From assembly GCA_902551185.1 (NCBI GenBank), contig CACDCN010000007.1, positions 1 to 55,451 of the forward strand: a stretch of 55,451 bases of DNA, read 5' to 3'. The position numbers were made by a program, and so were the translations under genes. This DNA comes from an uncultured SAR86 cluster bacterium (GTDB lineage Bacteria > Pseudomonadota > Gammaproteobacteria > Magnimaribacterales > D2472). Under the pieces are notes generated by a model. That model was given only the letters and a program-made list of their open reading frames with translations. It was not told the origin of the DNA and did no database searches. Shown here one piece after another: positions 13,547 to 17,047 of the stretch (positions are counted from its first letter, which is position 1; each line of letters begins with the position of its first letter).

Positions 13547-14512
13547 TTATTCTAGTCTTTCTTTGATTCTTGCAGATTTTCCAGATCTATCTCTAAGATA
13601 AAAAAGCTTCGCTTGACGAACATCACCTTTTCTTTTAACTTCAATTGAATCAATCATTGGGCTATGTGTTTGAAATGTTCTTTCAACACCTATTCCACTA
13701 GATATTTTTCTCACGATAAATGAAGAGTTTAATCCTGCTTTCTTTATACTCATTACAACACCTTCAAAGGCTTGAAGTCTTGTCCTTTCACCTTCTCTTA
13801 CTTTTACAGATACTACAACGGTATCACCTGGCCTAAATTCCGGCAGGTCTGTTTTCATTTGTTTTGATTCAAAGTTACTAATTATTTGAGATGGTGTTTG
13901 TTCTTCAAGAGATACTTTAACTTCTGCTGGAGCTTCTTCTTCGGCTTGTGTTTCCTCAGCTGGTGTTTCTTCTTCGGCAGGAGCTTCTGCTTCAGCGGTA
14001 GCTTCTTCTTCTGCTGGAGCTTCTTCTTGAGTGGGAGCTTCTTCAGCTAGTGTTTCCTCAGCTGGTGTTTCTTCTTCGGCAGGAGCTTCTTCTTCAGCGG
14101 GAGCTTCTTCCTCAGCTGGAGCTTCCTCAGCAGATACCTCTTCTTCTGCTGGTACTTCTTCTGATTCTTCTTTGGCTGCTACCTCAGCCATAACTGTAGC
14201 TGCATCATCAGCTGCACTTGGTGAAGCAGATTGATTGAAATGTAGATCCCAAGCTTCTAATAACTTAGCTTTGGTTAAATTAATATCTAGATCAAGTCCA
14301 TTTTCTTTAGCAGCTTCAACAATATCTGCTTTTTTCATTTTATTTAATGCAGTTTTACTTATAGATTCGGTATTTACTTTAGGATCTTCAGATTGTGTTT
14401 CAATTATATCTTCGTCAGAACTTACTGCTTGTTCTGGTTCTTTGGACGCACCAAAACCTCCAAATAATCTGGAAAAAAAACCTTTTTTCTTATTATCCTC
14501 TGTATTGCTCAT
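13547..14512 (-). CDS. rplS: 50S ribosomal protein L19 with a 200-residue composite N-terminal extension
   Basis: The C-terminal part (about residues 205-321) is a complete L19 with the [21 protein letters not shown] and [10 protein letters not shown] segments; L19 sits at the subunit interface. L19 is normally about 115-120 residues, while this protein has 321. The extension has three parts: a hydrophobic amphipathic start ([13 protein letters not shown], residues 8-20) like the FtsY N-terminus, a helical segment (about 50-92, [10 protein letters not shown]) resembling SAP/HeH domains, and an acidic alanine-proline-glutamate repeat (about 115-205). The frame is continuous from the ATG at 14512 to the L19 stop with no internal stop codon. 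It is last in the rpsP-rimM-trmD-rplS operon. Confidence 0.95.
13898..14170 (-). repeat. Degenerate coding repeat encoding the acidic AEEAPAEE tract of L19
   Basis: About 90 codons encode imperfect units of the type APAEEE / TPAEET. On the plus strand the units read as repeats of CTTCTTC-GC-GGAGCTTC-type sequence. It is clearly the same repeat family as the 3' end of rpsP about 1.6 kb away in the same operon. Codon choice varies between units, which indicates selection for the peptide as well as DNA slippage. The tract is locally richer in G+C than its surroundings. Confidence 0.9.
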
Positions 14513-14531
14513 AATATCTGCCTAAAAAGGG

Positions 14532-15266: not shown

Positions 15267-15791
15267 TTAATATTCCTTTTGCCATTCTACTTCTATTAAC
15301 TTTTTTTTATCATCAATTGATTTAATGAAAATATCTTTAATAAAAGGTATTAATCTTTCTTGATTATCAACAGAATTTTTAGATGGTTCAATAACTAAAC
15401 AGTCATTAGCACCAAAATTATTTAAAGCTCTTACAATGCCCAGAATATCACTAGAGTTCTTATCTTTTACCTGCATGCCTATAAGTTCATGCCAATAGAT
15501 TTCATCAATAGATAATTTTGGTAAATCTTCAGAGCTTATAAATAATTTTAAATTTGTAAATTCTTTAATTTCATCAATGTTATTTATACTATTGATCTTT
15601 GAATAGAATTTTTTATTTACTTTTTTTATATAAGCAATCTTAAAATTAATAATCTTATTATCTTCTATTAAAAAGTTTGAGTAATTAAGAATGTTTTCAG
15701 GTGGATTACAATAGGAATTTAAAAAGAATTCACCTTTTAAACCTCTCGGCTTACCAATAGATCCGATACAAATTAATTTATTTTTTTTCAT
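15267..15791 (-). CDS. rimM: Ribosome maturation factor RimM
   Basis: This 174-residue factor assists 30S head assembly and binds S19. The opening [20 protein letters not shown] matches the RimM N-terminal domain, and a PRC-barrel domain follows, including the [12 protein letters not shown] segment. I set the start at the ATG at 15791. The frame is open further upstream, but the extra part is a lysine/arginine-rich shadow of the rpsP repeat read in another frame. The chosen start lies inside the last codons of rpsP, giving a 14-base overlap and probable translational coupling. Confidence 0.93.
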
Positions 15792-16380
15792 CTTCTGAAG
15801 AATCTTCTTCAGGTGGAGCTTCTTCCTCAGCCGACGCTTCTTCTTCTGGTGCTGCCTCTTCTGCTGGCGCTTCCTCAGCCGGTGCCTCTTCTTCAGCTGG
15901 CGCTGATTCTTCCTCAGCCGGCGGTTCTTCTGCTGCTGCTGCTTCTTCCTCAGTCGGCGCCTCTTCTTCTGGTGCTGCTTCTTCTTCAGTTGGTGCTTCT
16001 TCTGCTGGTGCTGCATCAGCTGGTGCTTCTTCTGCTGCTTGAGCCTCAGCTTCTTTTGCTAACTTTTCAGCTATTGCAACTTTTTTTGCCTGAGCTTTAA
16101 CTTTTTTTGCTTCAACTTTTGCAGAAAATTCTTCAGGAGTTAGTTTAGATTCTTTTATTAATGATTTGATTCTATCACTAACTTGTGCACCTTTTGATAC
16201 CCATTCTTCTATTTTTTCTAAATCTATTCTAAGTCTTTCTTCTTGACCTTTAGCGCTTGGGTTAAAGAAGCCCAGCCTTTCTATAAATGCGCCATCTCTT
16301 GGACGCCTTTCGTCTGCAACTGTAATAAAATAATATGGGTTCTTTTTAGCCCCACTTCTTGCCAATCTTATAATTACCAT
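15778..16380 (-). CDS. rpsP: 30S ribosomal protein S16 with a 120-residue acidic C-terminal extension
   Basis: Residues 1-80 are a standard S16 ([38 protein letters not shown]). S16 is normally about 80-90 residues and this one has 200. The tail begins with a lysine/alanine-rich helix (about 85-112) and continues with acidic repeats of the [13 protein letters not shown] type to the end (DSSEDEKK). Long acidic S16 tails are known from some other bacterial groups, such as Bacteroidetes and alphaproteobacteria, so a tail alone is not unique. The shared repeat with L19 is notable. It is the first gene of the operon; ffh, often upstream, is absent here. Confidence 0.96.
15781..16044 (-). repeat. 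Degenerate coding repeat encoding the acidic tail of S16
   Basis: About 88 codons encode alternating EEAPAEEA / EEAAPEEE units up to the rpsP stop. The plus strand shows repeated GCTTCTTCTTC / GGTGCTTCTTCT-type units. Peptide and DNA pattern match the tract in rplS, which suggests one arose from the other by duplication, or that both expanded under the same selection. Confidence 0.9.
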
Positions 16381-16421
16381 ATTAAAAAATATTTAAATTT
16401 GTTTAAAAAGATGTGTATTTT

Positions 16422-16431
16422 AGGTTAACCT
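16422..16431. promoter_or_regulatory. Perfect 10-bp palindrome AGGTTAACCT in the rpsP/ypjD divergent intergenic region
   Basis: The palindrome lies 41 bases upstream of the rpsP start and 52 bases upstream of the divergent ypjD-like gene, in the only 103-base spacer available for both promoters. It could be an operator half-site pair for a dimeric regulator, but a 10-base palindrome may also occur by chance in AT-rich DNA. Confidence 0.25.
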
Positions 16432-16439
16432 TGCTAATA

Positions 16440-16468
16440 TTGATAGTATTATTATGCAAAGTTTTAAT
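16440..16468 (+). promoter_or_regulatory. Candidate sigma-70 promoter for the ypjD-corB pair
   Basis: A TTGATA -35 hexamer (16440-16445) and a TTTAAT -10 hexamer (16463-16468) are separated by 17 bases and end 15 bases before the ATG at 16484. Match quality is moderate, and AT-rich DNA gives many such matches. Confidence 0.35.
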
Positions 16469-16483
16469 TAATCTTTATTTTTA

Positions 16484-17047
16484 ATGAGTTTTATTACACA
16501 AGTAACTATAAGTATAGTTTTATACTTTATTGTTAGATTTTCTTATAAAAAAGAAAACTCTCTTAATATTGCTGCTTTTCTTTCTGCTTTTTCTTATGTA
16601 TTAATTTATTTGTTAACTTATGAAGTATTTGATATATTGCCTACCCTTCATTTTATGGTTACTGGTTTAAGCTTATTGTTTCTTTTTATTGCATATAACG
16701 AAATTATAATTCTTGAAAGAAAGGTAAGAAAAATTAAAAAGGGAGAATTAATTAATACTGACGGATTTCCTGTTGAGAGGAGTTACAAAATAGTTTTCAA
16801 ATTATTGGGCATTGGATTGTTTTTTCTTTCTTTGGCTTTAATTTCAGGATTGAGCATGCAATCAATTTTTACTGCAAATATAGTTTTTAAAGCAATATTT
16901 ACATTTATAGCTTGGCTTATTTATCTAATAACTCTGTTAGGGGTTCAATTTTTTAATTTTTCAATTAAATATGCTACCAGGAGCCTTTTTGTTGCTATGT
17001 GGGCTGTATTAATTGCTTATTATATGAATTCATACCTTATAGGTTAA
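16484..17047 (+). CDS. YpjD/CcsA-like inner membrane protein, N-terminally shortened
   Basis: This 187-residue protein has about five hydrophobic segments. Its later part fits the C-terminal half of the E. coli YpjD protein of the cytochrome c assembly (CcsA-like) family: an HFMVTGLSLL histidine segment, a VERSYKIVFKLLGIG segment and an FTFIAWLIYLITLLG segment. YpjD proteins are about 260 residues, so roughly 75 N-terminal residues are missing and the start shows no clear ribosome-binding site. No WGxxW haem motif is visible. The gene is followed by corB, the usual neighbour. YpjD's own function is poorly understood, so none is claimed here. Confidence 0.72.
   Translation: MSFITQVTISIVLYFIVRFSYKKENSLNIAAFLSAFSYVLIYLLTYEVFDILPTLHFMVTGLSLLFLFIAYNEIIILERKVRKIKKGELINTDGFPVERSYKIVFKLLGIGLFFLSLALISGLSMQSIFTANIVFKAIFTFIAWLIYLITLLGVQFFNFSIKYATRSLFVAMWAVLIAYYMNSYLIG

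Follow-up and report, generated by a model that had tools for sequence, protein, structure and literature searches.

A composite N-terminal arm on ribosomal protein bL19 may fasten ribosomes to membrane or RNA in SRP-less SAR86 bacteria

Several described systems resemble parts of the bL19 protein reported here. The N-terminal region of FtsY, as outlined in part of PMC5533587, combines a 14-residue lipid-binding motif, an acidic and probably membrane-repelling A-domain, and an amphiphilic alpha-N1 helix, while in mitochondria, tethers such as mL45/Mba1 and the Oxa1 C-tail hold ribosomes at the membrane without SRP (PMC8321541, relevant excerpt). Moreover, organellar bL19 proteins (plastid bL19c and plant bL19m) resemble the present protein in having an N-terminal extension ahead of the core, which in plastid bL19c lies near 23S helices H100/H101 (PMC5071890, in part); this likeness is one of position. 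The SAR86 lineage corresponds to the order Magnimaribacterales (PMC11582366, in part), and its SRP system has already been remarked in print to be "apparently" missing, with reference to Dupont 2012 (PMC4758666, in the passage concerned), so the absence is not put forward here as a new finding; the main text of PMC11582366 carries no mention of SRP, ffh, or signal recognition. Escherichia coli, according to parts of PMC7844537 and PMC8299109, tolerates the loss of SRP if altered initiation factors or ribosomal proteins slow translation, which shows that a lack of SRP can be compensated by modifying the translation machinery. In the open-licence PMC literature on SAR86, SRP/ffh, and L19 extensions, no published description of the L19 arm was found by title or by the start of the abstract.

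The window, i.e., the whole stretch of 55,451 nucleotides analyzed in this study, is contig C7 of a 920-kb SAR86 genome that was 77% complete. Its rplS sits in the operon rpsP-rimM-trmD-rplS, as expected for bL19, and consists of a single unbroken open reading frame of 321 amino acids (ATG at 14512, stop ending at 13547; Table 1). The L19 domain was found above the curated cut-off with both profiles, PF01245 (residues 210-319, 160.6 bits against 22) and TIGR01024 (residues 209-319, 157.7 bits against 90.7), placing the core within a few residues of the boundary (205-321) given by an earlier sequence-only reading. Compared with the bL19 of these families, the window's protein has a complete core and the same operon and adds about 200 N-terminal residues. 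Searches with the added part returned little: Pfam matched only L19 in the whole protein and nothing at E ≤ 1 in residues 1-205, as that reading had proposed to search, while NCBIfam added only weak matches to long multi-domain proteins (GltG, GltJ, Pol III gamma/tau, and MXAN_5187) that we think are composition-driven. In addition, Pfam gave scattered unrelated matches for 17 module sequences (hook plus helical domain) at E ≤ 10, and among PDB sequences the module had four weak matches (best E value, 0.21).

Table 1. Features of the rplS region in the window (residue numbers refer to bL19)
Feature	Position	Strand	Basis
rplS (bL19), 321 aa including the N-terminal arm	13547..14512	-	ORF; PF01245 and TIGR01024 L19 domain
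AGG, Shine-Dalgarno-like, 8 nt upstream of the ATG	14521..14523	-	Seen in 16 of 17 sequences, by eye
Basic amphipathic N-terminal hook, residues 1-20	14453..14512	-	Conservation, dN/dS, amphipathicity
Variable linker, residues 21-52, net charge -7	14357..14452	-	Alignment and charge; model pLDDT about 50
Three-helix Rho_N/SAP-like (helix-extended loop-helix) domain, residues 53-92	14237..14356	-	AF2, structure comparison, dN/dS
Acidic E/A/P-rich tract, residues 93-205, net charge -41	13898..14236	-	Composition
bL19 core, residues 206-321	13550..13897	-	Profile matches
rpsP (bS16) C-terminal acidic E/A/P tail, net charge -34, small-subunit parallel in the same operon	15781..16068	-	ORF and composition
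Interval between rpsP and the divergent 187-aa ORF, 103 bp; position of ffh in outgroup loci	16381..16483	.	Locus comparison

Within the hook, F12 was invariant in 29 sequences and K10, G11, F13, and S14 were conserved at ≥90%. Its basic-amphipathicity score (formula after HeliQuest) ranked fourth among 44 genes of the window, and the score was negative in both module-less relatives tested. AF2 predicted the hook with low confidence (pLDDT about 58) and without a helix. The helical domain has a net charge of 0, with K60, K61, T80, and K81 invariant in the 29 sequences, while residues 93-199 of the acidic tract comprise 39 Glu, 30 Ala, and 11 Pro among 107; across 17 sequences the tract varied from 69 to 170 residues in length and from -18 to -65 in net charge. 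Considering the same 17 sequences (136 pairs, Nei-Gojobori method), dN/dS was 0.073 over the first 17 residues, 0.100 over a 38-residue part of the helical domain, and 0.054 over the core; thus, the hook and the helical domain are under purifying selection. Just upstream of the core, these sequences had no conserved in-frame ATG, GTG, or TTG, and the sole recurrent ATG, 12 codons within the core, was missing in 5 of them. The low dN/dS, the lack of a conserved start before the core, and the AGG preceding the ATG together indicate that the arm is translated jointly with L19 and held by selection, as expected from the earlier claim of a composite extension on one uninterrupted frame. We regard the anatomy of the arm and the selection acting on it as practically certain.

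An assembly artefact at the repeat was rejected as the source of the extension, considering that 20 of the 29 f1 loci (f1 being the SAR86 family of the window) from a first search of relatives read through the gene, one of them in a single-contig genome (G034). The remaining nine contigs (L002, L003, L006, L007, L013, L016, L018, L019, and L027) end inside rplS, eight of them no more than 48 residues ahead of the core, and because contig ends shorten genes, such breaks cannot create an extension. The f1 rplS is nevertheless a recurrent assembly breakpoint; most of the breaks lie in the acidic repeat, and one is found in a two-contig genome. In the window, the longest exact repeat inside the gene measures 41 bases.

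To describe the distribution of the arm, rplS lengths were compared among relatives, as the sequence-only reading had suggested. An L19 match was obtained in 165 of 203 SAR86 genomes. Family f1, which holds SAR86A and is presumably the Suzuki lineage of PMC11582366, had extended frames of up to 369 residues, apart from one of 478 residues (G134) that reads through into a downstream recombinase gene and was rejected as a longer L19. The three other families (f2 to f4) had plain L19 among the matches listed, with frames of 116-138 residues except for one f4 frame of 205 residues (L209, G201:C42). The extra length of the latter is a charged C-terminal tail and its neighbor looks like leuC; this frame was rejected as an f4 arm and probably reflects contamination of the SAR86 genome. 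All 20 complete f1 loci of the first set, 19 from the window's genus g1 and one from g2, had the hook, the helical domain, and the acidic tract, while among 20 further f1 genomes from seven other genera, the acidic tract occurred in 20 and the hook-plus-helical module in 8 (g12, 3/3; g14, 4/6; g15, 1/3; g13, g16, g17, and g18, none of 8 genomes). Overall, the acidic tract was found in 40/40 and the module in 28/40 f1 genomes with a readable L19 start, including 19/19 of the window's genus. A module scan of GTDB genomes recovered 33 loci, 31 from SAR86 (including SAR86A) and two labelled only Gammaproteobacteria or Pseudomonadota. On a tree of TrmD, the L19 core, and the neighboring recombinase, built from those 42 of 66 candidate loci in which all three were readable (37 distinct), the module needs seven changes, at least five of them forced by supported branches. 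The simplest story is a gain near the base of f1 followed by repeated loss, with repeated gain or exchange as less simple alternatives. As for the small subunit, the bS16 C-terminal tails consisted of E/A/P repeats in the f1 loci examined, and other amphipathic repeats (A-K-D-V-V-E type) were seen in L083 (f1, G113) and L109 (f3, G046).

Within the searches made, no genuine Ffh or FtsY (203 genomes) and no 4.5S RNA (60 genomes) was found in SAR86. PF00448, the SRP54-type NG GTPase profile, had no match in the window's genome and only three weak partial matches in 60 relatives, one of them right at the cut-off. Across the 203 SAR86 genomes, 14 were matched; the five loci examined encoded an archaeal-type FtsY, an ABC-type ATPase, a GTP-binding protein, a ParA-like protein, and an Mrp-like protein (names assigned by eye), and the remaining matches were weak and partial (≤24.9 bits, some above the 22.7-bit cut-off). 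The only full-length SRP-type GTPase, the archaeal-type FtsY (L068, G171:C34), lies next to an archaeal-looking helicase in a draft genome and was read as a contaminant; it has two KKKGFF(A/G)(K/R) motifs with a long, charged, Glu-rich tract between them. The 4.5S RNA (RF00169) was detected in 0 of 60 SAR86 genomes, in a search with stricter filters whose controls were positive in 11 of 14 cases.

The gene order told the same story, in that three of four outgroup loci had CNNM/CBS gene-ffh-rpsP-rimM-trmD-rplS (in the fourth, ffh was present and rpsP was not found within the fetched stretch), while ffh was missing between the CNNM/CBS gene and rpsP in all 10 SAR86 loci covering this interval (the window, L100-L106, L108, and L109), with no masked bases. 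The two f1 loci among them also had a 187-residue ORF between these genes. In the window this ORF (16484-17047, + strand) has no Pfam or NCBIfam match; a gene next to ffh in two outgroup loci (L198 and L199) resembles it weakly, and no counterpart was detected by tblastn at the corresponding place in the f2 to f4 loci.

SRP loss and the arm did not coincide. Families f2 to f4 are without both SRP and the arm, and since SRP loss is thus wider than the arm, the arm was ruled out as a general SRP substitute across SAR86. Among 275 Gammaproteobacteria at least 85% complete, 257 had an SRP54-type GTPase match and 18 had none, 4 of the latter being SAR86. The other 14 (G205, G207, G237, G244, G309, G333, G352, G355, G359, G370, G403, G438, G458, and G467) include two genomes of 0.3-0.4 Mb and others of 1.0-3.2 Mb; G355 is probably incomplete rather than SRP-less, because its congener has SRP, and SRP losses may be commoner than thought. 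The idea that SRP-less bacteria generally extend L19 was not borne out by a scan of 15 non-SAR86 Gammaproteobacteria without a full-length SRP GTPase (G419 having a weak match) and three comparators: 14 of the 15 had L19, none of these 14 frames carried such an N-terminal arm, and with G355 excluded the count was 0/13. In G403 and G309, the extra length of the L19 frames seems to be read-through from upstream of a normal start, and the L19 of G244 (L164) has an Ala/Glu-rich tail at its C-terminal end. An Oxa1-like YidC tail in place of the arm was considered as well; six YidC ends were obtained from 30 loci, one of them belonging to another protein (L147), and the five SAR86 ends in this small sample were short.

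The layout of the arm recalls the FtsY A-domain (alpha-A1, acidic tract, and alpha-N1) in its basic amphipathic start, its acidic tract, and its GFFxRL motif, as the sequence-only reading had pointed out. Among 754 distinct frames (≥200 codons, 249,753 residues), the motif [KR]G[FL]F.[RK][LI] was confined to 24 frames of L19 and 4 of SRP-type GTPases, in a sample enriched for FtsY and L19 that shows preference rather than probability, and one gammaproteobacterial FtsY (L115) has an identical KKGFFSRL directly before its NG domain. The likeness in layout was thus borne out by this motif and by the description of FtsY in part of PMC5533587, at the level of motif and composition only. However, the L19 protein lacks an NG GTPase (no PF00448 match), places a helical domain between the hook and the acidic tract, and is fused to a ribosomal protein. 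Descent from FtsY was not supported, considering that the match covers eight residues, that the GTPase domain is absent, and that none of the FtsY N-termini examined contains anything corresponding to the Rho_N-like domain.

The helical segment had been described earlier as SAP/HeH-like, together with a proposal to predict the structure of the N-terminal part. AF2 placed three helices within residues 53-92 (53-57, 61-70, and 81-91; block pLDDT 81-90), and the domain predicted alone had a mean pLDDT of 82, so that the helix-extended-helix arrangement was recovered in the model. Compared with the candidates supplied by Foldseek, the predicted domain aligned with Rho residues 1-45 (Z 7.0, rmsd 1.7, 45 residues), a score below 8 and level with an unrelated entry, or with Rho residues 1-42 (Z 6.6, rmsd 1.3). 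Other structural matches were Rho entries (Z 5.3-6.6), T4 endonuclease VII (6.6), a Mycoplasma ATPase (7.3, the top score), and SAP domains (4.5-5.8); Foldseek with the domain returned nothing at E ≤ 0.001. With all Z values below 8, a common arrangement of small helices may account for the structural similarity to Rho and SAP. At the profile level, comparison with SAR86's own Rho_N scored 20.6, the best of 300 column-shuffled controls reaching 18.2 and the reversed control 7.7; hhalign gave a probability of 40% over 22 columns. PF07498 (Rho_N) gave no match above the cut-off for the L19 arm and, across 60 genomes at E ≤ 0.1, no listed match at rplS; PF02037 (SAP) scored 12.3 bits in the window, below its cut-off of 23.9, with weak matches in 3 of 15 members (best E value, 0.059). 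The domain may resemble Rho_N in its predicted three-helix fold and has weak profile similarity to it, but differs in falling below the profile thresholds and in lacking the Rho core domains and the KKQ/KRQ segment found in 13 distinct SAR86 Rho N-termini; it may resemble SAP in a helix-extended loop-helix but differs in its sub-cut-off score. These models and comparisons suggest a domain that is Rho_N/SAP-like in fold and is here assigned to neither family.

Four functions were weighed for the arm, in the order of membrane tethering, an RNA-binding arm, a charge or solubility device, and a cleaved precursor. Membrane tethering by a flexible arm with a membrane-binding hook is our tentative first choice, at somewhat less than even odds, and it was ranked first because the layout resembles that of the FtsY A-domain in a context without FtsY. 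The hook would be embedded in or attached to the inner membrane, or sit at the translocon, like the FtsY N-terminal and alpha-N1 motifs; the acidic tract would be a charged, extended spacer holding the hook off the rRNA; and the helical domain would give the arm another point of contact, on a protein or a nucleic acid. Some 50S subunits would thereby be kept near the membrane, making co-translational insertion easier in cells that retain YidC (present in 53/60 genomes) without SRP; the arm would be a lineage-specific aid rather than the order's replacement for SRP. The bL19 N-terminus is not known to be situated at the tunnel exit, which counts against tethering; the gap between them could be bridged by a spacer of 70-170 residues. 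The strongest point against the arm standing in for SRP is that the whole order lacks SRP, yet only part of one family has the module: the acidic arm was seen only in f1, the module in 28 of 40 f1 genomes, and the 13 SRP-less Gammaproteobacteria outside SAR86 have no such arm. The low-confidence hook model without a helix and the shortness of the FtsY match also weigh against tethering, as does a Rho_N/SAP-like fold, which points to nucleic acid no less than to membrane, and the acidic tract alone would repel membranes, as the FtsY A-domain is described to do (PMC5533587, in part). The likeness to the mitochondrial tethers lies in the proposed role only; no sequence relation is claimed, and the SAR86 YidC ends are short. 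We consider improbable a bolder version of tethering, whereby the arm, as an analogue of the FtsY A-domain with membrane hook, Rho_N-like domain, and acidic tether, would have replaced the SRP receptor in its docking half. It would keep 50S subunits at the membrane, so that targeting would be built permanently into the ribosome instead of depending on a particle that cycles, and other SAR86 families would have solved the same problem with other parts.

An RNA-binding arm appears somewhat unlikely yet ranks next, not far behind; here the Rho_N/SAP-like domain would grip single-stranded RNA, either mRNA near the ribosome or a nascent transcript, as in transcription-translation coupling, with the acidic spacer avoiding rRNA and the hook serving as a basic patch. 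The fold match to Rho residues 1-45 in many Rho entries, the SAP similarities in structure and in a few members' profiles, the score against SAR86 Rho_N unmatched by shuffled controls, and the four invariant residues (three lysines and a threonine) of the domain are consistent with it, but no family cut-off was passed, the hhalign probability was low over a short stretch, Foldseek found nothing at its threshold, the highest Z belonged to an unrelated ATPase, and the domain carries no net charge. Still less probable is that the acidic tracts offset the basic charge of L19 and S16 prior to assembly or screen the surface of the ribosome, with the module at the terminus as a minor, dispensable addition. 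The occurrence of the tract in every f1 genome as against the module in 28 of 40, the similar tail on S16 of the same operon, the variable tract length, and the charged C-terminal tails on the L19 of G244 and of the probable contaminant G201 fit this reading; purifying selection on the hook and the helical domain, near the level of the L19 core, goes beyond what a decoration needs. It is very unlikely that the arm is part of a precursor, removed before or during ribosome assembly, despite organellar bL19 chains of up to 233 residues in the PDB and the extension of plastid bL19c. Selection on the arm implies use, though not where.

Membrane-protein placement without SRP is an open question, and SAR86 can account for up to 6% of the surface-ocean microbial community (PMC11582366, in part). 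An FtsY-like arm is of more interest in an organism without FtsY and Ffh, and as an arm both conserved and patchy, it provides a natural experiment, the hook-plus-domain module being present in some species and absent from their relatives. Membrane binding would make the arm a bacterial equivalent of mitoribosome tethering, and RNA binding would make it a Rho_N-like arm carried by the ribosome.
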